A stretch of 64,000 bases of DNA from Bradyrhizobium sp. WD16. GTDB taxonomy: Bacteria > Pseudomonadota > Alphaproteobacteria > Rhizobiales > Xanthobacteraceae. Within the stretch, counting starts at the first letter, position 1. The number at the start of each line of letters is the position of its first letter. A program made the position numbers and the translations under genes. This document shows positions 10,866 through 40,274 of the stretch, one piece after another. A model generated the notes under the pieces. That model searched no databases, had not been told where the DNA came from, and saw only the letters and a list, made by a program, of their open reading frames with translations. Where the stretch lies: NCBI RefSeq assembly GCF_024181725.1, contig NZ_CP028908.1, positions 3,585,501 through 3,649,500 on the forward strand. The letters are read 5' to 3'.

Positions 10866-11615
10866 ATGACATCGACAGCCACACTCCAACCGGTTCGAGG
10901 CGACAATGTCACAGCGCTACGGCGGCCGCCGCTACTCGCCACACCGACTGCATACACGCGGGCCAGCGCCTATCGCCGGCGCCATTCGCGAGGGCTGGCG
11001 CATAGCGAGCCGGCGACCTCCGTCGCGAAGCGTGCATTCGACGTCGTTACGGCGAGCATGGCCCTGTTGTTCCTCGCCCCCCTCTTCGTCGGCATCGTGA
11101 TCGCGATCAAGGCGACGTCGCCGGGCCCGGTCTTCTTCCGTCAGCATCGCTATGGCTATCGAAACCGGTTGTTCAAGATCTACAAGTTCCGCTCGATGCG
11201 GACGGAACTCTCGGATGTGGGTGGAACCCGGCAGGCGGTTCAGGGGGACCCGAGAGTGACCGCGCTCGGGCGTGTTCTTCGCGCGACGAGCCTCGATGAG
11301 CTTCCGCAGCTGATCAATGTCATCAAGGGCGACATGTCGCTCGTCGGACCGCGCCCGCACGTCCCGGGAATGCTTGCGGCGGACATGCTCTATGAGGATC
11401 TGGTTCCCTACTATTTCCAGCGCCACATCGCACGTCCGGGGATCACCGGTCTCGCTCAGGTCAGCGGCTGTCGCGGTAGCACCGCTGACGCCGCTGCTGC
11501 GATCGCCAGAATTGGCTACGACCTCGAATACATCGAAAAGTGGTCGTTGTGGGTGGACGTGAAGGTCATTGCCCGGACCGTGCAGCGGGAGTTTTTGTCG
11601 GGAAGCGGCTTCTAG
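10866..11615 (+). CDS. Undecaprenyl-phosphate sugar phosphotransferase (bacterial sugar transferase)
   Basis: 249 aa, the short ExoY-like form with one membrane anchor ([20 protein letters not shown]) after a ~65-residue basic N-terminal tail. The catalytic domain shows [48 protein letters not shown] and VGPRP, the standard motifs of the family; the D-E pair in LDELPQ is catalytic. It starts repeat-unit synthesis by moving a sugar-1-phosphate to undecaprenyl phosphate. ATG at 10866 after GAGAG. The stop TAG (11613-11615) is part of the CTAG end of the adjacent palindromic repeat, so the repeat supplies the stop codon and may have trimmed the original C-terminus. Confidence 0.9.
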
Positions 11616-11691
11616 TGTGGCGTCTCGCAATTGCCTACCGCCTTCGCTGCCCCCCCTCTCGTAGGCAATTGCGAGACATAAGCCACACTAG
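11612..11691 (+). repeat. Palindromic repeat type B
   Basis: CTAG-bounded long hairpin. Outer arms CTAGTGTGGC / GCCACACTAG and inner arms TCTCGCAATTGCCTA / TAGGCAATTGCGAGA, with a ~25-base loop. It begins inside the stop codon of the sugar transferase and is joined by a 13-base linker (CACTTTGATTTTG) to the next element. Confidence 0.93.
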
Positions 11692-11704
11692 CACTTTGAT
11701 TTTG

Positions 11705-11779
11705 CTAGTGTCCCTATGTCTCCGAATGACCGTGCGAGCGTGAGGCAAACGAAGCGGTCATTCGGAGACGGGACACTAG
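11705..11779 (+). repeat. Palindromic repeat type A
   Basis: CTAG-bounded hairpin with outer arms CTAGTGTCCC / GGGACACTAG and inner arms GTCTCCGAATGACCG / CGGTCATTCGGAGAC. With the preceding B element and linker it makes the composite B-linker-A unit (11612-11779). Confidence 0.93.
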
Positions 11780-11852
11780 TGTGGCGTCTTGCAATTGCCT
11801 GTGGTGCGCGCTGCAAGGGAATACGAACGTTAGAACCGGGACACCAACGCGT
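11776..11852 (+). repeat. Hybrid remnant: left half of type B joined to right half of type D
   Basis: Begins CTAGTGTGGCGTCTTGCAAT as in type B, but ends ACGAACGTTAGAACCGGGAC as in type D. A deletion or recombination between neighbouring B and D copies explains it. It no longer folds into the full hairpin. Confidence 0.75.
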
Positions 11853-11890
11853 CGTCTCGCGCGAGCGCAGATGTATTGGGGAGATAGGCG

Positions 11891-13327
11891 ATGACACAAA
11901 ATGCAGACGGGCGCATCGTCCCGGTGTTGCTGTCGGGGGGGACGGGGTCGCGCTTGTGGCCACTGTCCCGGGAGACTTATCCGAAGCAGCTTCTGGCGCT
12001 GCTGGGGGAAAGATCGTTATTGCAGCAGACCGCGCTTCGCGCCGTCGAACCTTCGCTATTTGGCGACATCACGGTTGTCACCAACGTTGAGCATCGGTTT
12101 AGCATCGCCGGGCAACTCCGCGAAATCGGCGTGACCGATCCGACCATGATCCTGGAGCCGGTGGGGCGAAATACGGCTCCGGCTATCGCAGTTGCGGCGC
12201 TCGTGGCCGCCGAAACCAATCCTGATGCGGTCATCCTCGCCATGCCGGTCGATCATTGGATCGGCGACATCGGCGCATTCCGTGCGGCGGTGGCCAGGGG
12301 GCTGGATGCCGCGCGTGAAGGGCGCTTTGTCCTGTTCGGTATGCGGCCGACCGCGCCGGCAACCGGGTTCGGCTATATTCACATCGGCGCACCGCTGAAC
12401 GGTCGAGAAGGCACCTATGTGGTCTCGGATTTCGTCGAGAAGCCGAGCGAGAGCGTGGCCGAGAAGCTGGTGACGGGGGCTGAGCACCTCTGGAACAGCG
12501 GGATATTCCTGATCCCGGTTCGCCTGCTGATCTCGGAACTCGAGAGCCTTGCGCCGGACGTCCTCAGCGCGGCGCGCGCCTCGCTCGCGGCCGCCGGTCG
12601 CGACCGCGATTGCCTGCGCCTCGACCAGGCCTCTTTTGCCGGTGGCCCCGCGATCTCAATCGACCACGCGGTGATGGAGCAGACGGCCCACGCGGCGGTC
12701 GTTGCGGCGGATTTCGGATGGAGCGACGTTGGAAGCTGGTCGGCGCTCTGGGACGTGGCGGAAAAAGACGGCGACAACAACGTCGCGATCGGCGACGTGG
12801 TGATGGAGGATGCCAGGGACTGCTATGTCCGCGGCGAAGGACCGTTGATCGCAGCCCTCGGCGTCGAGAATCTCGTCATCACCGCGACGTCCGATGTTGT
12901 CCTGGTGGCCAGCAGGGACCGGGATCAGGATGTCGGCAAGCTGGTCAGCCGGCTGAAGAGCGATGGCCACAGCGCGGCGACCCAGACGCAGCGAGTCCAT
13001 CGGCCGTGGGGCTATTATCAGTCCATTGACACCGGCAGCCGGTTCCAGGTCAAGCGCATCACGGTCAACCCCGGCGCCAAGCTGTCGCTGCAGAAGCACT
13101 TTCACCGCGCCGAGCACTGGGTGGTGGTCACCGGAACCGCGATCGTGACGCGCGACGACGAAGAAACCTTGCTGCGCGAGAACGAGTCCATCTTCGTGCC
13201 GCTTGGCTGCATGCACCGGCTCGAAAACCCGGGCAAGGTGCCGCTCAATCTCATCGAGGTGCAATGCGGCTCGTATCTCGGCGAAGACGATATCGTTCGC
13301 GTCGAGGACGTCTATCAACGGGTCTGA
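11891..13327 (+). CDS. manC: Mannose-1-phosphate guanylyltransferase / mannose-6-phosphate isomerase
   Basis: 478 aa, full length for the type II bifunctional family (AlgA/ManC/CpsB). The N-terminal nucleotidyltransferase has LSGGTGSRLWPLSRETYPKQ and the sugar-phosphate site FVEKPS. The C-terminal cupin carries RPWGYYQSIDTGSRFQVKRI and GAKLSLQKHFHRAEHWVVV, the metal-binding isomerase motif. It makes GDP-mannose, a likely precursor of the polymer. ATG at 11891 with GGGAG seven bases upstream. The repeat remnant ends about 40 bases before it, so its promoter is either very short or lies upstream of the repeats with the sugar transferase. Confidence 0.93.
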   Translation: MTQNADGRIVPVLLSGGTGSRLWPLSRETYPKQLLALLGERSLLQQTALRAVEPSLFGDITVVTNVEHRFSIAGQLREIGVTDPTMILEPVGRNTAPAIAVAALVAAETNPDAVILAMPVDHWIGDIGAFRAAVARGLDAAREGRFVLFGMRPTAPATGFGYIHIGAPLNGREGTYVVSDFVEKPSESVAEKLVTGAEHLWNSGIFLIPVRLLISELESLAPDVLSAARASLAAAGRDRDCLRLDQASFAGGPAISIDHAVMEQTAHAAVVAADFGWSDVGSWSALWDVAEKDGDNNVAIGDVVMEDARDCYVRGEGPLIAALGVENLVITATSDVVLVASRDRDQDVGKLVSRLKSDGHSAATQTQRVHRPWGYYQSIDTGSRFQVKRITVNPGAKLSLQKHFHRAEHWVVVTGTAIVTRDDEETLLRENESIFVPLGCMHRLENPGKVPLNLIEVQCGSYLGEDDIVRVEDVYQRV

Positions 13328-13404
13328 AGCCGAAGCATCCGTGCCGAATCCGGGGTCGGCGGCAGGCGCCGGCTCTGCATCATGCATAACTATAGAGGTA
13401 GCCG

Positions 13405-14196
13405 ATGAGCGCTCTCCGACAGACCAAGACCGTGCTGAAAGAGGCATTTCCCTCGTTGTGGCTTCGTTGGCACTTCATGCATCTGCCGAAGACGGCGGAG
13501 ATCGAGCGATCGTTTCTCAAGCGGTTCATTCGCGAGGATGCGGTGACGGTCGATGTCGGGGCGAATTGCGGACTCTACACTCGCGAACTGGCGAGACTGT
13601 CGCGCTGCGTTCATGCCTTCGAGCCGTCGCGCCAGATGGCGGATCTGTTGCGCAGGACCTCGGCGCCCAACGTGAATATCCACGAGGTCGCGCTGTCCGA
13701 TCATAGTGGTGAGGCGGCTCTTTTCATTCCGGAGGGCGAACGGGGGCTGGTGCACGGACTGGCCTCGATCGAACCGCAGGCCTGTCAGTCGGGGAAGCCG
13801 GGGCGTGCCATTGCTGTGCCGACCGCACGTCTCGATGAGGTTGTGCAGGATGATGTCGAGTTCGTGAAGATCGACGTCGAAGGGCACGAGTTGAGCGTCC
13901 TGAATGGCGCCAACAGGCTGCTTGAGCGCTGCCAACCGGTCTTTCTGGTGGAAGCCGAAGATCGCCATCGCCCGGCTGCGACAAGTTGCGTCTTCGAATT
14001 CTTCCGCAACAGGAATTATCGCGGCTATTTTGTCGACGACGGTGATGTGCTTCCCATCGAGGCGTTCGACGTCGAGACCTTCCAGGATGTTGGTGCGCTG
14101 TTGCCCGACGGCGGGCGCAAGAACGGAAGGGCATATATCAACAACTTCTTCTTCTTTCCGATGCATCAGGACGGCCGGGAGATTTTGGTCGGGTGA
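13405..14196 (+). CDS. FkbM-family methyltransferase
   Basis: 263 aa. SAM-binding motif VTVDVGANCGLYTRELARL, then HAFEPSRQMADLLRR (acidic residue for the SAM ribose) and VEFVKIDVEGHELSVLNGAN, the FkbM signature I-D-V-E-G. Members in polysaccharide loci O-methylate sugar residues; the acceptor here is inferred to be the exopolysaccharide or its precursor. ATG at 13405 with GAGG six bases upstream. It lies between manC and ugd, all on the plus strand with short gaps, so the three probably share a transcript. Confidence 0.88.
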   Translation: MSALRQTKTVLKEAFPSLWLRWHFMHLPKTAEIERSFLKRFIREDAVTVDVGANCGLYTRELARLSRCVHAFEPSRQMADLLRRTSAPNVNIHEVALSDHSGEAALFIPEGERGLVHGLASIEPQACQSGKPGRAIAVPTARLDEVVQDDVEFVKIDVEGHELSVLNGANRLLERCQPVFLVEAEDRHRPAATSCVFEFFRNRNYRGYFVDDGDVLPIEAFDVETFQDVGALLPDGGRKNGRAYINNFFFFPMHQDGREILVG

Positions 14197-14248
14197 AGGG
14201 CGTGACGGCCGATGTCGTCAATAACCGCGTAGCTGGACAGGAGCACCA

Positions 14249-15574
14249 ATGCGGATTGCTATGATCGGAGCTGGCTATGTCGGGCTGGTGTCCGGAGCAT
14301 GTTTTGCGGACTTCGGCCATCATGTGGTCTGCGTCGACAAGGATGGTGACAAGATCGGCGCGCTCAGGCGCGGCGACATCCCGATCTATGAGCCCGGCCT
14401 CGCCGAACTGGTCGCCGCCAACGTCAAGCATCATCGGTTGCGCTTTTCGCAAGACCTGTCGTCGGCGCTCGAGGACGCAGACGTCGTCTTCATCGCCGTC
14501 GGGACGCCGTCACGACGCGGGGACGGGCACGCCGATCTGTCCTATGTGTTCGCCGCGGCCCGCGAGATCTCGCGCGGTCTTGGCGACCGGTTCACCGTCG
14601 TCGTGACAAAATCGACAGTGCCTGTGGGCACGGGTGACGAAGTCGACCGGATCATCCGCGAAGAGGGCGGCAAGGCGAACGTCGCCATCGTCTCCAATCC
14701 GGAATTCCTGCGCGAAGGCGCAGCGATCCGCGACTTCAAGCACCCGGACAGGATCGTGATCGGGACCGAGGACAAGCAGGCGCGCGAAGTGATGGCTGAG
14801 CTCTATCGGCCGCTCTATCTCAATGCCGCGCCGATCATCTATACCGACCGCCGCTCGGCCGAGCTGACGAAATATGCGGCCAACTCCTTTCTTGCCACCA
14901 AGATCGCCTTCATCAACGAAGTCGCCGATCTCGCCGAGAAGGTCGGCGCCAATGTGCAGGAGGTTGCGCGCGGGATCGGGCTCGACAATCGCATCGGTTC
15001 GAAATTCCTGCATGCCGGGCCGGGATTCGGCGGATCGTGCTTTCCCAAGGATACCCTGGCGCTGATCAAGACCGGCCAGGACCACGAGGCACCGCAGCGG
15101 ATCATCGAGACGGTCGTTGCCGTGAACGACCAGCGCAAGCGGGCCATGGCGCGGAAGGTCGCCAATGCGTTCGGCGGCAATATCCGCGGCAAGACCATCG
15201 CGGTGCTTGGGGTGACCTTCAAGCCGGACACCGACGATATGCGTGAAGCGCCCTCGATTCCCTTGATCACGGCGTTGCAGGACATGGGCGCCAATGTCCG
15301 CGTCTTCGATCCGGTGGGCCTCGGGCACGCCAGAACGATGCTGGGCGAGGACGTTGCTCTGGGCGAAGACTCCTATGACTGCGCAAGGGGAGCCCATGCG
15401 CTCGTCATCGTGACCGAATGGGAGCAGTTCCGCGCACTCGACCTGAAGGAGCTTGCGTCCGTCATGGCCTGTCCGGTCATTGTCGATCTGCGCAACATCT
15501 ATTCACCGGACGAGGTGATCCGGAACGGCTTTCTGTATTTCGGCGTGGGGCGGCCGCAGCCCCCGGCCTATTGA
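14249..15574 (+). CDS. ugd: UDP-glucose 6-dehydrogenase
   Basis: 441 aa, normal length. The N-terminal NAD site is MIGAGYVGLVSGACFADFGH. The catalytic cysteine sits in PGFGGSCFPKDTLAL and the conserved lysine in KYAANSFLATKIAFINEVAD. C-terminal UDP-binding domain with VLGVTFKPDTDDMREAPS. It oxidises UDP-glucose to UDP-glucuronate with two NAD+, so the polymer probably contains a uronic acid. ATG at 14249 with AGGAG five bases upstream. Confidence 0.95.
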   Translation: MRIAMIGAGYVGLVSGACFADFGHHVVCVDKDGDKIGALRRGDIPIYEPGLAELVAANVKHHRLRFSQDLSSALEDADVVFIAVGTPSRRGDGHADLSYVFAAAREISRGLGDRFTVVVTKSTVPVGTGDEVDRIIREEGGKANVAIVSNPEFLREGAAIRDFKHPDRIVIGTEDKQAREVMAELYRPLYLNAAPIIYTDRRSAELTKYAANSFLATKIAFINEVADLAEKVGANVQEVARGIGLDNRIGSKFLHAGPGFGGSCFPKDTLALIKTGQDHEAPQRIIETVVAVNDQRKRAMARKVANAFGGNIRGKTIAVLGVTFKPDTDDMREAPSIPLITALQDMGANVRVFDPVGLGHARTMLGEDVALGEDSYDCARGAHALVIVTEWEQFRALDLKELASVMACPVIVDLRNIYSPDEVIRNGFLYFGVGRPQPPAY

Positions 15575-15608
15575 AACGTCGAGGCTCGGTACAGGCGGCT
15601 GATCCGGG

Positions 15609-15854
15609 TCAGACGAATTCGACGCCGATGACGTTGCCATCGCGCCAGACCATGCGGCAACGGGCCGATTTTCGCACATCCATGTTCAGGGAGAGGCCGA
15701 GATCGCCGTCGACGAAGGTCGGGCCTTCGACGAAAAGTTTGGCGCCGCCGGTGGACAGGTCAAGCACCTTGCAGTGACGGCGGGCGAAGCCGCCGAGCGT
15801 CAGCCAGGCGTCCCGGCACATGGCGTGCCGTCGCGGTCGTTTCTCTCGTGCCAT
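15609..15854 (-). CDS. Small PilZ-domain protein
   Basis: 81 aa, a stand-alone PilZ domain. The N-terminal REKRPRR gives the RxxxR c-di-GMP contact, and KVLDLSTGGAKLFVEG gives the (D/N)xSxxG motif; the C-terminal RMVWRDGNVIGVEFV is the typical last strand. ATG with GGGAG six bases upstream. It is convergent with ugd. A c-di-GMP receptor beside an exopolysaccharide locus suggests post-translational or regulatory control of polymer output, which is inference. The in-frame extension to 16088 is low-complexity and rejected. Confidence 0.85.
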   Translation of the reverse strand: MAREKRPRRHAMCRDAWLTLGGFARRHCKVLDLSTGGAKLFVEGPTFVDGDLGLSLNMDVRKSARCRMVWRDGNVIGVEFV

Positions 15855-16224
15855 CGCCAACTCCCTTAAATTGAGATGGACAGTAGCAGCGGCGACTTTC
15901 CGAAAATTTGACGCAGAGCAGCAGGCTTGCAGCCGTTTTGCAAGCCTTCCGTAACCACGAGGTCCGGGAGCCGGGCGTCCCAGGTAACGGGAGGGTTCCG
16001 AAGCCGGCTGCGGATCAGATGTGTGAATGCGATAGGGGGCAGCCGGACGGCCGGCGCCTGTCCGTCGACCCGGGTTCCGCCCCGCCATGGCCGGGGCGAC
16101 GGTCCGCCATGCCCCTCGGGCGAATTGCCACGGCCGGGCAAGTTGACTATTGGGAAGCGGAATTCCAGCCGTTCCGGCCTAAGCTCGAGCTTGAGGCCCA
16201 AAACCGCCTTCCGAGGACGCCCCG
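15855..16224. other. Divergent intergenic region between PilZ gene and ilvD
   Basis: About 370 bases with no credible gene. It contains a 32-base block (16005-16036, CGGCTGCGGATCAGATGTGT...) that recurs with one mismatch upstream of the second dehydratase gene at 51397-51428. The rest shows no recognisable site. Confidence 0.6.
16005..16036 (+). repeat. 32-base block shared with the region before the second dehydratase
   Basis: Partner of 51397-51428; same orientation relative to the downstream IlvD/Edd gene in both places. Confidence 0.75.
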
Positions 16225-23414: not shown

Positions 23415-23492
23415 CTAGTGTGGCGTCTCGCAATTGCCTATGCCTTTGCGGCAAGCCTCTCATAGGCAATTGCGAGACATAAGCCACACTAG
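23415..23492 (+). repeat. Palindromic repeat type B
   Basis: Starts 8 bases after the formate dehydrogenase stop. Same arms as the other type B copies. On this strand the hairpin is followed by CTTTTTGATTTTG, so it could act as a terminator. Confidence 0.93.
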
Positions 23493-23505
23493 CTTTTTGA
23501 TTTTG

Positions 23506-23580
23506 CTAGTGTCCCGATGTCTCCGAATGACCGTGCGAGGGTGAGGCAAACGAAGCGGTAATTCGGAGACGGGACACTAG
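23506..23580 (+). repeat. Palindromic repeat type A (first copy)
   Basis: Hairpin with outer arms CTAGTGTCCC / GGGACACTAG. Completes the B-linker-A composite 23415-23580 and shares its right CTAG with the next element. Confidence 0.93.
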
Positions 23581-23654
23581 TGCGGTGGATCTGACGCTCG
23601 TATCCGTATTGCAGCGAGTTCTTCGTACGAGCGTCAGATCCAAAACCGCACTAG
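23577..23654 (+). repeat. Palindromic repeat type C (first copy)
   Basis: CTAG-bounded hairpin with outer arms CTAGTGCGGT / ACCGCACTAG and inner arms ATCTGACGCTCGTA / TACGAGCGTCAGAT. Type C is seen only in this cluster. Confidence 0.92.
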
Positions 23655-23667
23655 CTTTTTGATTTTG

Positions 23668-23742
23668 CTAGTGTCCCGATGTCTCCGAATGACCGTGCGA
23701 GGGTGAGGCAAACGAAGCGGTAATTCGGAGACGGAACACTAG
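23668..23742 (+). repeat. Palindromic repeat type A (second copy)
   Basis: Nearly identical to the copy at 23506-23580 (GGAACACTAG in place of GGGACACTAG at the right end). Exactly 162 bases downstream of it. Confidence 0.93.
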
Positions 23743-23816
23743 TGCGGTGGATCTGACGCTCGTATCCGTATTGCAGCGAGTTCTTCGTACGAGCGTCAGA
23801 TCCAAAACCGCACTAG
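23739..23816 (+). repeat. Palindromic repeat type C (second copy)
   Basis: Same sequence as the copy 162 bases upstream. The A-C-linker unit is thus tandemly duplicated (23506-23667 and 23668-23829). Confidence 0.92.
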
Positions 23817-23829
23817 CTTTTTGATTTTG

Positions 23830-23905
23830 CTAGTGTCCCTTTGGTTCTAACGTTCGTAGAAGTGCTCGCCGCAAGGGAAGACGAACGTTAGAACCGGGAC
23901 GCTAG
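23830..23905 (+). repeat. Palindromic repeat type D
   Basis: CTAG-bounded hairpin with outer arms CTAGTGTCCC / GGGACGCTAG and inner arms GGTTCTAACGTTCGT / ACGAACGTTAGAACC. The only complete type D copy; remnants occur at 11776-11852 and 40075-40111. Confidence 0.9.
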
Positions 23906-30312: not shown

Positions 30313-30843
30313 ATGAAGATCATCGGCCTCGCCGGCTGGAGTGGCGCCGGCAAGACCACACTGCTGCAGCGATTGATCCCGCAGCTTGCGGCGCAGGGAT
30401 TGCGGGTATCGACCGTCAAGCATGCCCACCACAATTTCGATGTCGACGTGCCCGGCAAGGATTCCTGGCTGCACCGAAAGGCCGGCGCCTTCGAGGTGCT
30501 GGTCGCATCCAGCCGGCGCTGGGCCCTGATGCATGAATTGCGCAGCGATGCCGAGCCACCGCTCGACGAACTGCTCCGCAAGCTCTCGCCGGCTGATCTC
30601 GTCATCGTCGAGGGCTTCAAGGCCGGCAGCCATCCCAAAATCGAGGTGTACCGGCAGGCCAACGGCAAGCCGCTGCTCTATCCTGGCGATCCGGCGATCG
30701 TCGGCATCGCCAGCGATATCGAACTCGAGACGCGGTTGCCGCTGGCGTCGCTCGACGATGCGGCGGCGGTGGCGAAACTGGCGCTGGCGGCGGCACGGCC
30801 GATTGCCGACGTGCTTGCGGCCGCAGCGCGTGGAGAGAAATGA
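30313..30843 (+). CDS. mobB: Molybdopterin-guanine dinucleotide adapter protein
   Basis: 176 aa. P-loop IIGLAGWSGAGKTTLLQRLI, then VSTVKHAHHNFDVDVPGKDS and LVIVEGFKAGSHPKIEVYR, all standard MobB motifs. MobB is a GTP-binding helper of MobA. ATG at 30313 with CGGAG seven bases upstream. Its stop overlaps the moeA start (AATGATGG), so the two are coupled. Confidence 0.92.
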   Translation: MKIIGLAGWSGAGKTTLLQRLIPQLAAQGLRVSTVKHAHHNFDVDVPGKDSWLHRKAGAFEVLVASSRRWALMHELRSDAEPPLDELLRKLSPADLVIVEGFKAGSHPKIEVYRQANGKPLLYPGDPAIVGIASDIELETRLPLASLDDAAAVAKLALAAARPIADVLAAAARGEK

Positions 30844-32096
30844 TGGCTCAGCTATCCGACGACTGCTTCGCCTTCGGCGGGCCGATGCTCTCGGTGGACG
30901 AGGCCGTCAAGCTGATCTCCACGCGCATGACGGCAGTATCCGAAACCGAAGGCGTTGCCCTTGCCGAGGCCGACGGGCGTATCCTCGCCAGCGATGTCGT
31001 TGCGCCGCTGCCGGTGCCGCCCTTCACCAACTCGGCCGTCGATGGTTTCGCCGTGGCGAGCGGCGATCTGCCCGCAGGAGAAGCCGGGCGATTCCAGGTG
31101 GAGGGGCGGCTCGCCGCGGGCGGGCGGGCCGCAACGCCGCACTCGGGCCACGCTCTGCGGATATTCACCGGCGCCCCGATGCCGCCGGGCCTCGACACCG
31201 TCTTCATGCAGGAGGACGTCCAGCTTCAGGGCGATGGCAGTGTGCTGTTGCCGCCGGGCCTCAAAGCTGGAGCGAATGTCCGTCCTGCGGGCGAGGACAT
31301 CGCCGCAGGCAGTGTCGCCCTTGCCGCGGGAACGCGGTTGCGGCCGCAGGAACTGGCCGTGGCTGCGGCACTCGGTTTCACCGAAGTCGATGTGCGGCGG
31401 CGCATCCGTGTCGCTGTGCTTTCGACCGGTGACGAGGTGGTCGAGCCGGGTGCGCCGCGGGGCCCGTCGCAGCTCTACGATTCCAACCGCGTGATGCTCG
31501 CCACCATGCTGCGCCGCCAGGGCTGCGCAGTGAGCGATTTCGGTATCGTGCCGGATGATGCCGAGCGTGTCGCGGCCGTGCTTGCCGAGGCCGCGAAGGG
31601 CAATGACCTGATCGTCACATCGGGAGGCGTCTCGACCGGCGAGGAGGATCACGTCAAGGCTGCAGTGGAAAGCGCTGGCCGGCTGGTGTTGTGGCGTATG
31701 GCGATCAAGCCGGGACGGCCGGTCGCCATGGGCGTCATCGAAGGCGCCGCGCTGATCGGCCTGCCGGGTAATCCGGTGGCGAGTTTCGTCACCTTCGTCC
31801 ACGTGGTCCAGCCGGCGATCGCCGCGCTGGCCGGCGCCCGCTGGCAGCGTCCGCTTCCGCTGCCGGTGCGCGCCGCCTTCAGCTATCGTAAGAAGCCGGG
31901 CCGGCGCGAATATGTCCGGGCCCATCTAAGGATCGCTGCCGATGGAAGCGTCGAAGCGATCAAGTTTCCGCGTGAAGGCGCCGGGCTGCTCTCGTCCCTG
32001 ACGCACACCGATGGTCTCGTCGAACTGCCCGAGGACATCAGCCAGGTCGCCCCCGGCGATCGCGTCGGTTTTCTGTGGTTCGCCCAGCTGATCTAG
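30843..32096 (+). CDS. moeA: Molybdopterin molybdenumtransferase
   Basis: 417 aa, canonical length. PPFTNSAVDGFAVASGDLP, FTGAPMPPGLDTVFMQEDV, VLSTGDEVVEPG, LYDSNRVML, VTSGGVSTGEEDHVKAAVE, MAIKPGRPVAMG and GLPGNPVASFVTFV are intact. It inserts metal into adenylylated molybdopterin. ATG at 30843 has GGAG seven bases upstream; ATG at 30840 is also possible. The stop TAG (32094-32096) is formed by the CTAG end of a palindromic repeat. This is the third MoeA-type gene of the island and the best candidate for the housekeeping enzyme. Confidence 0.94.
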   Translation: MAQLSDDCFAFGGPMLSVDEAVKLISTRMTAVSETEGVALAEADGRILASDVVAPLPVPPFTNSAVDGFAVASGDLPAGEAGRFQVEGRLAAGGRAATPHSGHALRIFTGAPMPPGLDTVFMQEDVQLQGDGSVLLPPGLKAGANVRPAGEDIAAGSVALAAGTRLRPQELAVAAALGFTEVDVRRRIRVAVLSTGDEVVEPGAPRGPSQLYDSNRVMLATMLRRQGCAVSDFGIVPDDAERVAAVLAEAAKGNDLIVTSGGVSTGEEDHVKAAVESAGRLVLWRMAIKPGRPVAMGVIEGAALIGLPGNPVASFVTFVHVVQPAIAALAGARWQRPLPLPVRAAFSYRKKPGRREYVRAHLRIAADGSVEAIKFPREGAGLLSSLTHTDGLVELPEDISQVAPGDRVGFLWFAQLI

Positions 32097-32167
32097 TGTC
32101 CTGTCTCCGAATGACCGCTCCATTTGCCTCATGCTCGCACGGTCATTCGAAGACATAAGGACACTAG
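32093..32167 (-). repeat. Palindromic repeat type A (reverse orientation)
   Basis: CTAG-bounded hairpin starting inside the moeA stop codon; reverse complement of the type A copies at 11.7 and 23.5 kb, with a few substitutions in the arms. Confidence 0.92.
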
Positions 32168-32180
32168 CAAAATCAAAGTG

Positions 32181-32259
32181 CTAGTGTGGCTTATGTCTCG
32201 CAATTGCCTACGAGAGGCTTGCCGCGAAGGCGGTAGGCAATTGCGAGACGCCACACTAG
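32181..32259 (-). repeat. Palindromic repeat type B (reverse orientation)
   Basis: Joined to the type A element by CAAAATCAAAGTG, the exact complement of the linker at 11.7 kb. Together they form the inverted composite unit 32093-32259. Confidence 0.93.
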
Positions 32260-33319: not shown

Positions 33320-34110
33320 GCGCGGGGGCGGCGTCGCGGCGCTGGCTCGTGCGTTTCGCGCCGGTGCTGGCCTGCCTCGGTCTGCTGGCGGTCTGGCAAC
33401 TCGCGTCGCTGCTGCTGACCACGGAGAGCGTGCCGTCGGCGCTGGAGGCTCTGCGCGCCGTGCCGCAGATCCTCACCGACCGCGAATCCCTCGTCAACAT
33501 TCTCGATTCCATCCGGCGCATGATCATCGGCCTCTCGGCCGCCGTGGTGGTCGCGATCCCGCTCGGGCTGCTCATGGGCCGGGTCAAGACGGTGGCCGCG
33601 CTCGCCAATCCGCTGCTGATGGTGATTTACCCGGTGCCCAAGGCCGCGTTGATGCCGATCATCATGCTCTGGCTCGGCGTCGGCGATCTCTCGAAGACCC
33701 TCGTCATCTTTCTCGCGGTGACGCTGCCGATCATCTATCACTCGTTCCAGGGCGCCCGCGCCGTGGAGGAAAAGATGCTGTGGTCGGGCGCGGCGATGGG
33801 AATGTCGGCGCCGCAACGCATGCTGCGGATCGTGTTGCCGGCGGCCTTGCCGGAAATCCTCGCGGGCTGTCGCACCGGTCTCGTGCTGGCGCTGATCACC
33901 ATGGTCACCAGCGAGATGATCGCAAGGAAGTCCGGCGCCGGCAACATCCTGTTCAACGCGCTCGACATGGGGCAGTACGACACCGTCTTCGCCATGATCA
34001 TCATCATCGGCGCGCTGGGCATCGTGCTCGACGGCGCGTTCGACCGCTTGCGCCGTGCGTTGGTCTCCTGGTCGGAATCGGCGCAGGACATTCCGCTGAG
34101 TTTCTCATGA
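33316..34110 (+). CDS. ABC transporter permease (SsuC/TauC class), first
   Basis: 264 aa with six predicted helices and the EAA-like loop SGAAMGMSAPQRMLRIVLPA ALPEILAGC (split by a space here only for length). YPVPKAALMPIIMLWLGVGD is typical of the class. ATG overlaps the ATPase stop and its own stop overlaps the next permease (ATGA), so all three are translationally coupled. Confidence 0.9.
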   Translation: MSAGAASRRWLVRFAPVLACLGLLAVWQLASLLLTTESVPSALEALRAVPQILTDRESLVNILDSIRRMIIGLSAAVVVAIPLGLLMGRVKTVAALANPLLMVIYPVPKAALMPIIMLWLGVGDLSKTLVIFLAVTLPIIYHSFQGARAVEEKMLWSGAAMGMSAPQRMLRIVLPAALPEILAGCRTGLVLALITMVTSEMIARKSGAGNILFNALDMGQYDTVFAMIIIIGALGIVLDGAFDRLRRALVSWSESAQDIPLSFS

Positions 34111-34874
34111 TCGCACGCTTGTTCTCTCGCGAACTGTTGCTTGGGCTGCTGCCGATCCTGGGGCTGGGATTGCTCTGGCAGGCGCTGGTGTCGTTCGGGG
34201 CCGCGCCGATCGCGCTGCTGCCGCCGCCGGCTCTCGTCTTCGCGCGGCTCGGCCATCAACTCGCCACCGGCGAGTTTCTCGACCAGGCCGGCGCGACGCT
34301 GCTGCGGCTGTTCGTCGGCTTTGCCGTCGCCGTGGTCCTCGGCGTCGGCATCGGGCTCATGGCCGCGGTCAATCCCACCGTCGGCGCCGTCATCAGGCCG
34401 ATCGTGCGCGTGCTGGCGCCGGTGCCAAAGGTCGCGCTCTATCCGGCCCTCTTGCTGCTGCTCGGCTTTGATCACGCTTCGAAGATGGCGCTCGTCACTG
34501 CCGACGCGCTGTTTCCGATCCTGCTCTCCACCTATTACGGCGCCTCGATGGTCGAGCAGAAGCTCATATGGTCGGCGCTCGCCGCCGGAACGCCGCCGCG
34601 CGAGGTGATCTACAAGGTGGTGCTGCCGGCCGCGCTGCCGTCGATCCTCACCGGCTGTCGCATTGGACTGGTGATCTCCTGCATCGTCGTCTTCCTGGCC
34701 GAGATGATCTCCTCGACCAACGGGCTCGGCTATCTGCTGGTGCGCGCGGCGCGCAGCTTCCAGACGGTCGACATGTTCGTGCCGCTGATCTCGATTTCGC
34801 TGCTTGGGCTGATCCTCAATGCTGCGCTCAATGGGCTACGCAAGATGCTGCTGCGCGGCTTTTCCGAGAACTAG
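34107..34874 (+). CDS. ABC transporter permease (SsuC/TauC class), second
   Basis: 255 aa, a diverged paralogue of the first permease: APVPKVALYPALLLLLGFDH and SALAAGTPPREVIYKVVLPA correspond to the same loops. Two different permeases imply a heterodimeric channel, as opposed to the single-permease Ssu system. The start at 34107 overlaps the upstream stop; the longer frame from 33780 is a shadow of the first permease. The stop TAG (34872-34874) comes from the CTAG end of a palindromic repeat, so the repeat lies inside this transport operon, before the binding protein. Confidence 0.9.
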   Translation: MIARLFSRELLLGLLPILGLGLLWQALVSFGAAPIALLPPPALVFARLGHQLATGEFLDQAGATLLRLFVGFAVAVVLGVGIGLMAAVNPTVGAVIRPIVRVLAPVPKVALYPALLLLLGFDHASKMALVTADALFPILLSTYYGASMVEQKLIWSALAAGTPPREVIYKVVLPAALPSILTGCRIGLVISCIVVFLAEMISSTNGLGYLLVRAARSFQTVDMFVPLISISLLGLILNAALNGLRKMLLRGFSEN

Positions 34875-34945
34875 TGCCCCGTCTCCGAATTACCGCTACG
34901 TTTGCCTCGCACTCTCACGGTCATTCGGAGACATAGGGACACTAG
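34871..34945 (-). repeat. Palindromic repeat type A (reverse orientation)
   Basis: Starts within the stop codon of the second permease. Inner arms GTCTCCGAATTACCG / CGGTCATTCGGAGAC with one mismatch. Confidence 0.92.
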
Positions 34946-34958
34946 CAAAATCAAAGTG

Positions 34959-35037
34959 CTGGTGTGGCTTATGTCTCGCAATTGCCTACGAGAGGGTTGC
35001 CGCGAAGGCGGTAGGCAATTGCGAGACGCCACACTAG
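34959..35037 (-). repeat. Palindromic repeat type B (reverse orientation)
   Basis: Follows the linker CAAAATCAAAGTG. Its left boundary is mutated to CTGG; the right CTAG is intact. Composite unit 34871-35037. Confidence 0.92.
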
Positions 35038-35105
35038 TGTCCTGTCTCCGAATTACCGCTTCGTTTGCCTCACCCTCGCACGGTCATTCGGAGACAGGAC
35101 ACTAG
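35034..35105 (-). repeat. Extra palindromic repeat type A
   Basis: A second type A hairpin directly abutting the composite with a shared CTAG and no linker. A few bases shorter than other A copies (CTAGTGTCCTGTCTCC at the left). Confidence 0.9.
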
Positions 35106-35191: not shown

Positions 35192-36175
35192 ATGCGCAAC
35201 ATGATGAAGCGGGTGACTGTGGCGGGCGCTACGCTGGCGGCGCTGGTGACGGCCAATGGCGCCATGGCGCAGCAGACCATCCGGGTCGGCTGGACCATTC
35301 CGGCGGAAGAGTCCAAATACTGGATGATGAAGCGGCCGGACCAGTTCCCCGATCTCGGCAAGAAGTACAAGATCGAATGGACCCAGTTTCAGGGCACCTC
35401 GCCGATGACCCAGGCGCTTGCCGCCGGCGCGCTGGATTGCGCGACGCAGGCGCCGTTGTCCCTCGCCAACGGCGCGGTCAATGGCGGGCTGAAGGCCTAT
35501 ATCGTCGCCCAGCATGTGTTCGAGAAACCCGGCGGGTTCTCGGTGTATTGGGCGGTCAAGGAGGACTCTCCGATCAAGACGATCGCTGACCTGAAGGGCA
35601 AGACGGTCGGCATCTCCGTGCTCGGCGGCGGCACCTATGGTCCTTTCGCCATGCTGCTGAAGAAGAACGGCGTCGACCCGGAAAAGGATATCAAGCTGGT
35701 CGAAGTCGGTTTCGCCGTGTCGGAGGATGCGCTGCGTCAGGGCCGGGTCGATGCGGTCAACATGAACCAGCCCTTTGCCGCCCGCGCCGAGGCCAAGGGC
35801 GGCACCCGCAAGCTGTTTGCACTCTCCGAGGCGATGCCGAACATCGTCCACATCCTTGAGGCCTGCCGGGCCGATTTCGTCGACAAGAATCCTGATCTGG
35901 TGAAGGCCTATGTCGCGGATATCACCCGCGGCATGAAGATGGCGCTGGCCAATCGCGAGGAGACGATCAAGGTGGTGTCCGAGGTGATGAAGGCGCCGCC
36001 GGCGGTGCTGGAGACCTATCTGCTCAAGAGCAACGATTTCGGCCGCGATCCGGTGGCGGCGCCGAACTTCGAGGCGATCCAGACCATGCTCGACATCTAC
36101 GCCGAAACCGGCATGCTGCCGAAGATGAGTGTGAAGCAGTTCTATAATCCGGACGTGGTGGCGCCGATTCAGTAG
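35192..36175 (+). CDS. ABC transporter substrate-binding protein (NMT1/SsuA-like)
   Basis: 327 aa. Signal peptide VTVAGATLAALVTANGAMAQ with cleavage after A-M-A. Mature part QQTIRVGWTIPAEESKYWMM, then TQALAAGALDCATQAPLSLA, IADLKGKTVGISVLGGGTYG and FAVSEDALRQGRVDAVNMNQ: the order seen in SsuA/TauA/NMT1-like binding proteins. It delivers the ligand to the two-permease importer encoded just upstream. ATG at 35192 with GGGG eight bases upstream; ATGs at 35201/35204 are possible. It is separated from the permeases by ~320 bases full of palindromic repeats, which may allow unequal expression. A terminator follows. Confidence 0.9.
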   Translation: MRNMMKRVTVAGATLAALVTANGAMAQQTIRVGWTIPAEESKYWMMKRPDQFPDLGKKYKIEWTQFQGTSPMTQALAAGALDCATQAPLSLANGAVNGGLKAYIVAQHVFEKPGGFSVYWAVKEDSPIKTIADLKGKTVGISVLGGGTYGPFAMLLKKNGVDPEKDIKLVEVGFAVSEDALRQGRVDAVNMNQPFAARAEAKGGTRKLFALSEAMPNIVHILEACRADFVDKNPDLVKAYVADITRGMKMALANREETIKVVSEVMKAPPAVLETYLLKSNDFGRDPVAAPNFEAIQTMLDIYAETGMLPKMSVKQFYNPDVVAPIQ

Positions 36176-36197
36176 ACGTTATCGCCTCTCGGTCTTG

Positions 36198-36231
36198 AGC
36201 AATGGCCGGCTGAGCCCGGCCATTGCTTTTT
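36198..36231 (+). terminator. Intrinsic terminator of the ABC importer operon
   Basis: GCAATGGCCGG-CTGAGC-CCGGCCATTGC, an eleven-base perfect stem followed by TTTTT, 23 bases after the binding-protein stop. Confidence 0.88.
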
Positions 36232-36292
36232 GTCCCATGCCGAGCGTCGGTTGAATGTTCGTTGAGCTTTCGGAGATCGTCGCGCGCAGGCG

Positions 36293-36308
36293 CTAGTGTC
36301 CCGTCTCC
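36293..36308 (+). repeat. Fragment of palindromic repeat type A
   Basis: CTAGTGTCCCGTCTCC only; the rest of the hairpin is missing. It marks a former insertion with later deletion. Confidence 0.6.
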
Positions 36309-36494
36309 ATCGCGCCAGCAGAGCGGCAAGGTTCCCGGCGGGCGCGCCGGCAAGCTCGATGACGCAAGAGACGAGCGGCGGGACCAGCACGACAATGGCG
36401 GAACGATCATTCATGGCACGCTCCTGATAGCGGTGGTCAGCTCCGGGGCGGACGCATCGGACTTAATTCCCCCATCCCGCGGTCGATGACAGGC

Positions 36495-38081
36495 TCAGGT
36501 CGCTGTGGCGCGATCGGCTTCCCATCTTGCGACTTCGGCGAGTTCGGCCTCGGGATGCAGGGTGGCCACTTTGAAGCGGCCGAGATAGACCTTGCCGTCG
36601 CTCCCATCGATCGAGAGCCAATCGCCTTCACCAAGGCGGGCATCCTCCAGCATCGCGCCTCCGGGGCCATCGAGGCGCAGGCGCGTGCAGCCGACGATGC
36701 AGGGCTTGCCGAGTTGGCGCGCCACCAGCGCCGCGTGGGAGGTTAGTGCCCCGGTCACCGTCACGATGCCGGACGCCACGGCAAAGCCGGCGATGTCGCC
36801 GGTGCTGGCTTCGGGACGAAGCAGGATGACGGGATCGCCCGCAGCGGCGATCTGCCGCGCATCCTCGGTGCTGAAGGCGGCCCGGCCGACAGCGACACCT
36901 GCGCTGGCGCCGACGCCTTGGGCCGCAGGTTCGCCGGCATCGATCAGCCGCGTCTCGGCGATGGCGTCGAGGTCGATGCCCTGAATCCGGCGCAAGCCCG
37001 CTTGCGGCGTCAGCACGCCCTCGCGGACGAAATCCACGGCAAAGCGCAGGGCAGCGCGAGGCGTTCGCTTGGCATCCCGGGTCTGCAGGAGCCACAAACG
37101 GCCATCCTCGACGGTGAATTCGACATCCTGGACATCGCCGAACGCGCGCTCGAGGCGGAAGAGCACGGCGCTGAGTTCTGTCGCGAGATTCGGTAGCGCA
37201 CGGGCGATGGTCTCCGCAGTATCGGGCGGGCGCCGGCCCGAGACGACGTCCTCGCCCTGGCCGTCAAGCACCATGTCGATCACCGGCCGCGGCGTGCCGC
37301 TCGACGGGTCGCGGGAGAATGCGACACCGGCGCCGGAGGAAGGCCCCGAATTGCCGTACACCATCGCTTGAACGGTGACCGCGGTACCCTGGAGGGATTC
37401 CAGATTCTGCAGGCGGCGATAGGTGTTGGCGCGTTCGCTGGTCCAGGATCGATAGACGGCGCCGGCGGCAGCTTCGAGCTGCGCCATGGCGTCGTCTGAC
37501 CAGATTTCTCCAGCCTCCTCGATCAGGGCGAGGTGTTCAGCCGCGAGATCCTCGAGCGCGACGCTGTCGAGATCGCGTTCGCTCGTCGCGCCGTCGGCGG
37601 CGACGGCCGCGTCACGGCGGGCGGTGAACGGCGCCGGTGCCAGGCCCAGCACCGTCTCGGCGTAACTCTCCAGGAAGCGCCGCCGGCAGTCCCAGGCGAG
37701 TCGCGGGCGTCCGGTGCTGCGGATCAGTCCCTGCACGGCGTCCAGAGTGCAGCCGACATCGAGGACGGTGTCCAGCATGCCGGGCATCGATCGTTCGGCC
37801 CCGGAGCGCACCGAGACCAGAAGCGGGCGCCGTCGATCGCCGATTCGCTTCCCGGTCTGCCCCTCGAGAAAGGCGACGCCCTGCTTGAGACTGTCGCGTA
37901 GTTCTCGGCCGGCGCGGCGGTCGCCGCGGATCACGGCGGCACAGAGCCGGACCGGCAGGACGAAGGCCGGAGGCACCGGCAGTCCGAGCGCTGCCATGCG
38001 GGCGAGATTGGCGGCCTTGGCGCCGATGTTCTCGGCGGAATGATGCCGCTTGCTTCCATCGCCGATGAGGATGAGGGTCAT
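36495..38081 (-). CDS. PPDK-like protein: ATP-binding and phosphohistidine domains without PEP barrel
   Basis: 528 aa. Residues ~1-340 match the pyruvate phosphate dikinase N-terminal ATP domain (GAKAANLARMAALGLPVPPA, SVRSGAERSMPGMLDTVLDV, VYGNSGPSSGAGVAFSRDP, DGQGEDVVSG, DVQDVEFTVEDGRLWLLQTR). Residues ~390-500 are the swivelling domain with the phosphoryl-carrier His in VTGALTSHAALVARQLGKPC. The C-terminal PEP/pyruvate barrel (~350 aa) is absent and no frame outside the gene continues it. It may phosphorylate another acceptor. ATG at 38079-38081 with GAG upstream. It follows the DUF47-like gene by 11 bases, so they are co-transcribed. Confidence 0.85.
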   Translation of the reverse strand: MTLILIGDGSKRHHSAENIGAKAANLARMAALGLPVPPAFVLPVRLCAAVIRGDRRAGRELRDSLKQGVAFLEGQTGKRIGDRRRPLLVSVRSGAERSMPGMLDTVLDVGCTLDAVQGLIRSTGRPRLAWDCRRRFLESYAETVLGLAPAPFTARRDAAVAADGATSERDLDSVALEDLAAEHLALIEEAGEIWSDDAMAQLEAAAGAVYRSWTSERANTYRRLQNLESLQGTAVTVQAMVYGNSGPSSGAGVAFSRDPSSGTPRPVIDMVLDGQGEDVVSGRRPPDTAETIARALPNLATELSAVLFRLERAFGDVQDVEFTVEDGRLWLLQTRDAKRTPRAALRFAVDFVREGVLTPQAGLRRIQGIDLDAIAETRLIDAGEPAAQGVGASAGVAVGRAAFSTEDARQIAAAGDPVILLRPEASTGDIAGFAVASGIVTVTGALTSHAALVARQLGKPCIVGCTRLRLDGPGGAMLEDARLGEGDWLSIDGSDGKVYLGRFKVATLHPEAELAEVARWEADRATAT

Positions 38082-38092
38082 GGCAGGTCTCG

Positions 38093-40018
38093 TCAGGCGG
38101 TCAGGTCGGTCATGAGGTAGCGACGCAGCAGATGTCCGAAGCCGGCCAATCGATCGGTCGCCCGCTCGATCGCCCGCGCGAGTTCGAGGATGGCGAGCGC
38201 CTGGGGCATTTCGATCGTTCCGCTCAGGGCCAGCGCCGTCAGGTGCCTTTCGTGGGCGTCGGCGGCATGCTCGGCATCGGAGAGGCGCGCAACACAGGCG
38301 AGTGCGTCCTCGGAATCGATCTGGTTTCCCTCCGGTATCTCGCAAACCGCGGCAAGTCCGCTGGCTGCCGCCTCGATGCCGGACAGCGCCTCATGGCAAA
38401 GGCCGACCAGCGCCGGCACGCAGGTCGCGTCGATCTTCGCCGGCAGCAGCGAGGCGACAAAGGTGGCCTGTTCGAGGTCGTCGATCGCGTCTTCGAGGCG
38501 ATCGACGAACTGTTCGATCATCGCGCCGCCCTGCAGACGGGCGATATCGCCGCGCGCTTCGATGGCGATCCGATCGGCCTTGCGCTCGATCGCCGCGGCG
38601 CGGGCGGCGAGGGTGCTGCCGTCGCAGCTCCGGCCGGTCTGTAGCGTGGCGACGTGGTGAGCGAGGGCCGCGGCGATATCATGGGCAAGTCCGGCCTGGC
38701 GGATGACGATGGCGAGCAGGGTGACGTCGACACTTTCGAGGCGACGGACGAGATCGGACTCGATGCTGTCGCGCACCAGCCTGACCGAGCGGCCGGCGGT
38801 AAGACCGTCGGTCGACATGCGCAGCGTGGTCTTGAGAAAATCGACCGCTCCGCCGCGGCCCAGCACTTCGTCGAGGCGTTCACCGAAACCGATGCGCGTC
38901 GGCGCCGCATTGCGGACCGCCGCGCCGATCAGTTCGCTGCCGCCGAGTTCGAGGAACGCGCGATGCCCGACCCTCGCCCGCGCTGCCCAGGTCAGGATCG
39001 AGACGGCATCCGTCTTGCCGACATAGTCGCGCAGCAGTTTACGAGCCCGGTTCCAGTCGATCAGGAACACCAGCGTCGCGCCGAGCGCGGCAAGGGCGGC
39101 GTCGCGTTCGGCGGCGCTATCCGTCTCAAGGCGTCCGGTGACCAGATAGAAGCCGTCGTCGCCCAATCCTTCGGCGTCATGGCGGTCGAGACCGCTCCAG
39201 ACGAAGTCGTGGCCCTCCATCAGCGAGATCAGGAACTTCGCGCGCGGGCGATGCACGTCGGTATAGGTTACCGTCACGGCATTGCCTTCTACCGAGATCA
39301 CCACGACATGGGCGTCAGTCGTGCCGATGTCGTTCTGGATCACCAGCCGCTCGCCGGAGCGCGTCGCCAGCGTATCGAGTCCGGGATGGTCGAATTTGAG
39401 TCCGCGGGTTTCGGCGAGACCGCGCATGAAGGCCTCGACGGCGCGGTGATCCTGCGGCGCGAGGCCGAAGACCCGCGCGCCCGCCAGTTCCTCCTCGGCG
39501 CAGCCGGCGGCCAGCCTGTTGAGTTGCTTGTGCAGATCCAGCACCAGGCGGTGCAGGCTGTCGCCGCCGCTTTCCGCCACGGCAGTCAGTCTGGCGATCT
39601 GCGCCGCATCGATATCGTCGCCGGCGTTCAGCGCGCCGCCGCCCCTGATCGCGATGAGCCGATCCTTCACACCGGCGCCTGCCGCCGGGTCAGCGGCAGC
39701 GACGGCGTCGATCATCGCGAGAGTGTCCTCGGCAATGTCCTTCATCAGGCGGTTAAGGGCCGGCGCGGCGATGCGACCCTCGCCGACGAGATGAGCTCCG
39801 GCGATGATTGGACTAATCGCAGCGGGTGCAAGCCCCGCCTGGCGGCACTCGACATCGAGATCCGTCACGGGACGCATCGGTTCTCGGGCGTGCAGCGCCG
39901 CGGCCTGCAAGGCGCTCAGCCGCACCTTGATACGATCGTTGGCACGCAGACCCTCCGAAACCAGCTTTGGCAACAGGACGGCGGTCTCGCCGAGTTCTTC
40001 GATCATCCGGGACTTCAT
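38093..40018 (-). CDS. Large protein with C-terminal DUF47/PhoU-like domain
   Basis: 641 aa, soluble. The last ~220 residues are helical with IERKADRIAIEARGDIARLQ, FVDRLEDAIDDLEQATFVAS and LSDAEHAADAHERHLTALAL, the E/D-x-x-x-D metal-binding helices of DUF47/PhoU-like proteins. The N-terminal ~420 residues are not a family I recognise; a beta-rich middle (LVIQNDIGTTDAHVVVISVE, NAVTVTYTDVHRPRAKFLIS) lies between helical parts. ATG at 40016-40018 with AAGGA eight bases upstream. Coupling to a PPDK-like phosphotransferase suggests phosphate or phosphoryl metabolism, which is inference. Confidence 0.75.
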   Translation of the reverse strand: MKSRMIEELGETAVLLPKLVSEGLRANDRIKVRLSALQAAALHAREPMRPVTDLDVECRQAGLAPAAISPIIAGAHLVGEGRIAAPALNRLMKDIAEDTLAMIDAVAAADPAAGAGVKDRLIAIRGGGALNAGDDIDAAQIARLTAVAESGGDSLHRLVLDLHKQLNRLAAGCAEEELAGARVFGLAPQDHRAVEAFMRGLAETRGLKFDHPGLDTLATRSGERLVIQNDIGTTDAHVVVISVEGNAVTVTYTDVHRPRAKFLISLMEGHDFVWSGLDRHDAEGLGDDGFYLVTGRLETDSAAERDAALAALGATLVFLIDWNRARKLLRDYVGKTDAVSILTWAARARVGHRAFLELGGSELIGAAVRNAAPTRIGFGERLDEVLGRGGAVDFLKTTLRMSTDGLTAGRSVRLVRDSIESDLVRRLESVDVTLLAIVIRQAGLAHDIAAALAHHVATLQTGRSCDGSTLAARAAAIERKADRIAIEARGDIARLQGGAMIEQFVDRLEDAIDDLEQATFVASLLPAKIDATCVPALVGLCHEALSGIEAAASGLAAVCEIPEGNQIDSEDALACVARLSDAEHAADAHERHLTALALSGTIEMPQALAILELARAIERATDRLAGFGHLLRRYLMTDLTA

Positions 40019-40074
40019 GGCCTGTCCTTCGGGCGGCGTGGCCAATCTGCCATTTAACGGAGCCGACGTCTTGC

Positions 40075-40111
40075 GCTAGATGGGATACGAACGTTGGAAA
40101 CGGGACACTAG
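40075..40111 (+). repeat. Remnant of palindromic repeat type D
   Basis: CTAG, then GATACGAACGTTGGAAACGG and the end of type D, GACACTAG. The left arm is gone. Confidence 0.65.
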
Positions 40112-40186
40112 TGTGGCGTCTCGCAATTGCCTACCGCCTTTGCGGCAAGCCTCTCGTAGGCAATTGCGAGACATAAGCCACACTAG
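40108..40186 (+). repeat. Palindromic repeat type B
   Basis: Full hairpin with arms TCTCGCAATTGCCTA / TAGGCAATTGCGAGA in the divergent region between the DUF47-like gene and the small cysteine-rich gene. Confidence 0.93.
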
Positions 40187-40199
40187 CACTTTGATTTTT

Positions 40200-40274
40200 C
40201 TAGTGTCCTTATGTCTCCGAATTACCGTGCGAGGGTGAGGCAAACGAAGCGGTAATTCGGAGACAGGACACTAG
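40200..40274 (+). repeat. Palindromic repeat type A
   Basis: Completes the composite unit 40108-40274; linker CACTTTGATTTTT differs by one base from the others. Confidence 0.92.

Follow-up and report, generated by a model that had tools for sequence, protein, structure and literature searches.

The window analysed here, a stretch of 64,000 nucleotides of the Bradyrhizobium sp. WD16 genome (contig NZ_CP028908.1, positions 3,585,501 to 3,649,500), belongs to a single-contig genome of 5,945,179 bases (G000 below) and carries repeated palindromic units in which two long CTAG-bounded hairpins, type B and type A, are joined by 13 AT-rich linker bases. Five such B-linker-A units were found exactly where an earlier note on this sequence had placed them, with lengths of 168, 166, 167, 167 and 167 bases, within the range of 166-168 that it had given. 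They consist wholly of the two hairpins and the 13 nt linker (166-168 bp) and have no transposase gene of their own, which is the shortness expected of a miniature inverted-repeat transposable element (MITE). The linker follows a common 13-base plan, as had been noted, with the sequence of the fifth unit corrected to CACTTTGATTTTT, and the arms generally end in CTAG as claimed, apart from one hairpin border, at 34959, that reads CTGG.

The outer stems are GTGYGGY in type B and GTGTCCY in type A. Inner stems define two classes, with GTCTC..AAT..CC in class 1 and, in class 2, GGATCTGACGCTCG in B2 and GTTTCCAACGTTCG in A2. In a bulged hairpin, one arm is plain and the other holds 3-4 extra bases after base 7, the consensus being GTGTGGC-GTCTCGCAATTGCC for the plain arm and GTGTGGC-TTAT-GTCTCGCAATTGCC for the inserted arm, with B2, A1 and A2 built likewise. 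The earlier note had presented two unrelated hairpins; since B and A have one arm plan in common, they are related, and we take them to be the two ends, somewhat unlike each other, of an IS630 element. The units and hairpin remnants of the window are the following.

11612 to 11779, plus strand: B1-linker-A1 unit (B 11612-11691, linker 11692-11704, A 11705-11779); its left CTAG supplies the TAG stop of the open reading frame (ORF) 10836-11615.
11776 to 11847 (end approximate), plus strand: composite fragment, a B1 plain arm joined directly to the right-hand portion of an A2 hairpin, read by eye.
23415 to 23580, plus strand: B1-linker-A1 unit, first of a tandem array.
23577 to 23742, plus strand: B2-linker-A1 pair, sharing its CTAGs with its neighbours.
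23739 to 23905, plus strand: B2-linker-A2 pair, last of the tandem array.
32093 to 32259, minus strand: inverted B1-linker-A1 unit; its left CTAG supplies the TAG stop of ORF 30840-32096.
34871 to 35037, minus strand: inverted B1-linker-A1 unit; its left CTAG supplies the TAG stop of ORF 33780-34874.
35034 to 35105, minus strand: A1 hairpin without bulge, with a CTAG in common with the preceding unit.
36293 to 36308, plus strand: isolated plain-arm fragment CTAGTGTCCCGTCTCC.
40076 to 40111, plus strand: right part of an A2 hairpin, whose left CTAG is the left border of an insertion.
40108 to 40274, plus strand: B1-linker-A1 unit (B 40108-40186, linker 40187-40199, A 40200-40274), with its right border CTAG at 40271-40274 and an empty site in genome G002, a sister species.

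Several of these features were absent from the earlier note: the three linked pairs in tandem that make up the 23415 cluster, the bulge-less A hairpin at 35034-35105, and three hairpin fragments (36293, 40076-40111 and about 11776-11847). The fold of the 40108-40274 unit is far beyond chance: as DNA it has an energy of -58.8 kcal/mol, where shuffled versions average -20.9 (z -12.3) and 0 of 200 equal it. An Rfam scan of the window gave no match at gathering scores.

The pairing of the hairpins was examined in a sample of 864 kb, composed of the window and 40 stretches of 20 kb across the chromosome. A rule that required the outer 10 bases to be paired with at most two mismatches, and allowed at most one change in the two CTAGs, retrieved 157 hairpins. 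With the linker defined by position alone, as 11-15 bases followed by a CTAGTG-like arm, 135 of 150 bulge ends were adjacent to a linker, 11 to another hairpin and 4 to unique DNA; the corresponding figures for the 150 plain ends were 8, 48 and 94. Three of the seven bulge-less hairpins stood alone, two abutted a neighbour without linker (one such reading, the right end of 35034-35105, being unique DNA by eye) and two had a linker on one side. Among the 64 linked pairs, 40 were B1-A1, 13 B2-A2, 5 B2-A1, 2 A1-A2, 2 B1-B2, 1 A1-A1 and 1 unclassed: there are thus two main unit families with some mixing, and the partners are partly exchangeable. The 66 clusters held one (16), two (27) or at least three (23) intact hairpins, and some single hairpins adjoin a decayed partner.

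The two arms of the hairpins also covary. All 11 testable positions agreed between arms above expectation, from the weakest cases (43/48 against 38.2 expected at B1 position 7; 30/56 against 21.0 at A1 position 21) to the strongest (24/26 against 13.3 at B2 position 7; 47/56 against 27.6 at A1 position 10), these counts being of copies rather than of independent events and four A1 positions depending on about four odd copies. In one copy of another genome (G145:C83:198827-198901), the loop is inverted relative to the bulge when compared with other G145 copies, as if the palindrome had flipped.

The earlier note had proposed a search of the whole genome and of relatives. The linker junction CTAG-Y-N-Y-TTTGATTTT-N-CTAG occurs 283 times in G000, against 0 for a reversed-pattern control, and 18 times in G122, a genome of another genus; the other 196 of the 198 family genomes searched, including two further genomes of the genus (G001 and G002), had none. 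The A hairpin is more widespread: of the 198 family genomes, 62 contain its exact pattern, and these represent 24 of 47 genera, the control being 0 in every row listed. There are 399 copies in G000, 235 in G122, 144 in G053 and frequently just 1-3. Other genera also have units built on this plan, with different stems and with linkers that are similar in length and different in sequence. For instance, of 35 bulged A hairpins from 24 genomes other than G000, 26 were followed at the bulge, after a gap of 8-18 bases, by a partner hairpin and 3 had one at the plain end, two readings from loci cut at their ends being left out, and 25 of the 26 bulge-side partners had their own bulge toward the linker. 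Furthermore, 20 loci of G145 and G057, selected for the length of their hairpins (13 full and 7 short), contained 13 clearly bulged hairpins. Every one of these had a linker at its bulge and none at its plain end; the partner was detected in 11 cases and recognised by eye as decayed in the other 2. Of six bulge-less hairpins, four were solitary. Two queries of a plasmid collection at distant sensitivity returned zero matches.

Empty sites in orthologous loci had been proposed as a further check, and one was found. G002 reads CTTGCG-CTAG-ATCATTCAT where the window reads CTTGCG-CTAG-[insert]-CTAG-ATCATTCAT, the insert spanning 40076-40274. This comparison shows insertion into a single CTAG, leaving CTAG on both sides; the TA target duplication of IS630-type MITEs is thus present at this one site, where duplications of TA and of CTAG look alike. 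Other sites give partial views. The G001 orthologue of ORF 30840-32096 has a TGA stop after the same codon (site 32093), and at site 34871 the G001 and G002 orthologues stop with TGA at the same codon in an ungapped reading, the G002 sequence after the stop, TGGGGC, also fitting the window sequence after the insert. Site 5281 in L089 is compatible with an empty site on one flank only.

CTAG itself is scarce in this genome: the sample contained 421 against 2,767 expected from base composition, and 269 of these lay inside intact hairpins. CTAG therefore reaches about 15% of its expected number, or about 5% when intact hairpins are set aside, the mobile units holding most of the CTAGs of the sample. 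Where hairpin arrays have a CTAG in common, their period is 162-163 bases.

A transposase with matching ends, the remaining check suggested earlier, was found outside the window in the same genome. The earlier statement that no transposase lies in the window holds for the two families tested, as none of the 34 DDE_3 (IS630) places of G000 and not its single Y1 place falls there. One of the IS630 elements, an insertion sequence (IS) of type c that we call ISc, is 1,184 bases long including its CTAGs and encodes a 360-residue IS630 transposase (NCBIfam IS630 match of 254 bits for a cut-off of 100; DDE_3 also matched). Its left and right ends fit the class 1 plain arms, with 15 and 16 of 21 bases for B1 and 13 and 17 of 21 for A1; terminal repeats like those of a host IS630, as known for MITEs, are thus observed for B1 and A1 (13-17 of 21, against 5-8 of 21 for the control ends of IS630 types a and b). 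Over positions 8-24, the plain arms matched the best of 26 IS ends at 12.0 of 17 positions in G000 (148 hairpins), 12.4 in G001 (12) and 11.6 in G122 (118), compared with 8.5, 8.1 and 8.2 for permuted ends. These 26 ends came from ISc and from 12 pairs of its relatives; the end finder gave no ends in 2 of 22 loci (L325, L338), and L313, L327, L328, L331, L335, L336, L321 and L323 were left out as unclear, of another end type or near-duplicates.

Types a and b were rejected as the source of the B1 and A1 ends on account of these low end scores, though they use the same CTAG target. They insert at the TA in CTAG, in 15 and 10 copies (L252-L279), and 21 of the 25 lie in or against hairpin sequence by eye, a proportion not clearly above the hairpins' share of CTAGs. 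Two of these copies (L261, L262) sit at the CTAG between a linker and a hairpin and have similar flanks. In addition, a stop-bearing ISc copy (L307:1746-3254) lies within an array, with A1, A2 and B2 hairpins on one side and a B1 hairpin on the other.

Across the family, 32 of 198 genomes have an ISc-like gene at E 1e-25, and the readable ends of ISc-like elements are mostly TA-flanked GTGT..., GTGG..., GTACC... or GTCA... repeats. G122 also has hairpins with the outer ends GTGGTCC and GTGGAGC/T, found as linked partners, and the two ends of an IS630 in G168 (L316) are GTGGTCT and GTGGAGC; from this resemblance, the two hairpins of a unit would correspond to the two ends of one IS. A hairpins occurred in 16 of 32 genomes with an ISc-like gene against 46 of 166 without (p 0.013), and in 6 of 7 genomes with a clear GTGT-ended ISc-like IS, the overall share being 62 of 198 (p 0.004). 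Counting G105, whose ends are unclear and possibly GTGT, makes this 6 of 8 (p 0.012). All of these p values are too small because the genomes are related.

Taken together, these observations make it probable that the unit is an IS630/Tc1-mariner-type MITE, mobilised by an IS630-family transposase that acts in trans and comes from ISc or from its earlier relatives. The single non-autonomous mobile unit envisaged in the earlier note is thus borne out by the linker at 135 of 150 bulge ends, the empty CTAG site and the IS with matching ends. We read its organisation as a new architecture for an IS630-type MITE, with both ends folded back and the inner copies mis-spaced. The outer ends, C-TA-GTGTGGCGTCTCGCAATTGCC and C-TA-GTGTCCTGTCTCCGAATTACC, would act as terminal inverted repeats, and insertion at the TA within CTAG would leave CTAG on both sides, TA rather than CTAG presumably being the true duplication. 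Each end would be followed by an inverted copy of itself, making it a hairpin, and the 3-4 extra bases after base 7 would put the terminal bases of the inner copies out of register with the transposase-binding part. The inner ends would consequently be silent, as their position and the bulge-less hairpins suggest, so that B-linker-A would travel as one piece, and bulge-less single hairpins could move alone. Since it would present two proper ends at TA, the unit could be moved in trans, by analogy with ISY100 (PMC2170065, cited, like the papers below, from excerpts). New copies and IS630 elements would land in the CTAGs of older copies, because the genome offers few other CTAG sites, and this self-targeting of scarce CTAGs would build the arrays with a common CTAG and a period of 162-163.

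Several observations weigh against this reading, or narrow it. Fifteen of the 150 bulge ends lack a linker, 16 of the 66 clusters have only one intact hairpin, two of the six bulge-less hairpins of G145 and G057 have a partner, and one hairpin of these genomes with a 1-base bulge, included in neither count, has its partner on the side that the rule calls plain. For the class 2 arms, G000 offers no matching IS, B2 agreeing with ISc at 9-11 and A2 at 12-13 of 21 positions, and A2 with the ends of IS type b at 10-11 of 21. Inserted arms scored 6.9 (G000), 8.2 (G001) and 6.2 (G122) in the test against 26 ends, a low match that in part follows from the insertion itself and shows spacing, not loss of function. 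Matches of a chosen local hairpin arm to the better local IS end (19/24 in G057, 18/24 in G114, 16/24 in G145 and 15/24 in G050) lack a control. The clean two-sided empty site is one only. Moreover, of the 62 genomes in which A hairpins occur, 46 lack an ISc-like gene at E 1e-25, and G122, with its 235 A hairpins, has one DDE_3 match, a fragment. Finally, the 8 ISc copies are 100% identical in protein, whereas the median pairwise identity among 36 B1-A1 units is 92%, so most unit copies seem older than the present burst of ISc; ISc may have come late to ends that already existed, and an earlier relative may have moved the unit copies.

A different emphasis would be that the hairpins, while being IS630-type MITEs, persist chiefly because they serve the host at the ends of genes, for example by terminating transcription from both directions or by acting as mRNA barriers. 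Their very stable stems and covarying arms would suit such a role, as would the excess of stop-like TAGs (at least 100 open codons upstream with third-position GC above 0.75) at cluster borders, 20 of 116 tested against 16 of 267 other CTAGs (p 8e-4) and 335 of 5,011 other TAGs, after leaving out 15 borders that lack TAG and 1 that lies at an edge. This excess may however merely reflect where CTAG is tolerated, the units are absent from the sister genome or genomes read at all three places compared, and an A hairpin of the exact pattern is absent from 136 of 198 family genomes, which leaves this explanation improbable. 

Spread by the genome's REP-associated tyrosine transposase (RAYT), as for repetitive extragenic palindromic sequences (REPs) and bacterial interspersed mosaic elements (BIMEs), appears more improbable still. 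The bulged hairpins in inverted pairs, the high copy number and the arrays do recall BIMEs, and the one Y1_Tnp match of G000 has half an A hairpin beside it. Yet this RAYT has its own repeats, GTGACAGTGCACTTAATT (at most 2 mismatches) occurring both at its own locus and at 72 of the 79 loci of its relatives, whereas none of these 79 holds a CTAG hairpin or the linker; on these grounds the RAYT was rejected as mobiliser. The insert is furthermore flanked by CTAG on both sides and its arms match IS630 ends, the units show no association with a RAYT gene flanked by copies of themselves, as in REPs, BIMEs or REPINs (REP doublets forming hairpins), and the unpaired GTAG or CGTC tag at one end of REPs is lacking, CTAG pairing with CTAG at each hairpin foot. 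This sole Y1/RAYT match (L068:7479-8156, G000:C1:55.5-56.2 kb) thus accompanies a conserved repeat family of its own, and the closest relatives of its protein, among the matches listed, are in Bradyrhizobium. Lastly, it is scarcely credible that B and A are two distinct MITEs of one hairpin each that came to lie next to each other by independent insertions, for although CTAG bounds each hairpin and single hairpins and mixed pairs exist, the idea is already contradicted by the linker, which is conserved in 283 copies within the genome, has counterparts of similar length and other sequence elsewhere, mostly faces bulge ends and is not expected from independent hits.

Returning to the IS630-type MITE, its architecture might amount to an end-locking device, a possibility that we advance tentatively and hold to be rather doubtful. 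Ends duplicated and inverted, with inner copies mis-spaced by 3-4 bases, could bind transposase without being cut (or hide an end in a hairpin), making the two hairpins one obligate unit; they could also damp the transposase, and the units, because they hold most CTAGs of a CTAG-poor genome, could at the same time be landing sites that divert IS630 elements from genes. Elsewhere in the window, a 48-bp direct repeat, not of the hairpin kind, occurs at 16005-16052 and 51397-51444 with 88% identity.

The MITE reading ties the abundant REP-like palindromic repeats of this family to a DDE transposon instead of a RAYT. It offers a simple testable rule for why the hairpins remain paired, the plain arm being active and the inserted arm silent, and it would account for the arrays and for the location of the scarce CTAG sites in this genome. 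It also supplies a sequence signature for finding such units elsewhere. Among the matches listed, mostly outside subscription journals, there is no description of CTAG double-hairpin MITEs in these bacteria.

Rhizobium-specific intergenic mosaic elements (RIMEs) hold two palindromes. Compared by description only, RIMEs and the AB and C palindromes of rhizobia resemble our units as intergenic palindromic mosaics (PMC2573895); the first 50 kb of Sinorhizobium meliloti pSymB contain no CTAG hairpin, which says little about RIMEs. REPs, BIMEs and REPINs likewise form inverted hairpin pairs in high copy number and type mosaics (PMC3116915, PMC3733652). At one of their ends, REPs have a GTAG or CGTC tag that stays unpaired (PMC3733652, whose main text, figures excluded, has no CTAG-initial word), and the units differ from them by having no RAYT association, CTAG on both sides and arms matching a DDE (IS630) transposon. 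MITEPsy1 of Pseudomonas syringae, a 100 nt MITE with a proposed origin in ISPsy2 (table entry "IS5?"), is similar in duplicating CTAG (or YTAA), and differs in that no double hairpin is described in the excerpts (PMC3189936).

Closer parallels are found among IS630 elements. ISY100 (IS630/Tc1-mariner) duplicates a TA target and moves by cut and paste, its mini-transposons being functional with 30 bp per end, and its authors consider 24 bp repeats sufficient (PMC2170065); unlike ISY100-like elements, our units are gene-free and each of their ends has a folded-back second copy. RUP (repeat unit of pneumococcus) of Streptococcus pneumoniae is a 107 bp MITE with ends like those of IS630-Spn1, a TA target and a proposed trans-mobilisation, and it clusters with other repeats that inserted into one another (PMC2229807, PMC3049150). 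The units resemble RUP in being small MITEs with IS630-like ends, TA at the target and nested clusters, as far as these excerpts describe it. By contrast, RUP is a simple element of 107 bp, whereas the units described here combine two linked hairpins, inverted end copies with a 3-4 nt insertion and a CTAG target.

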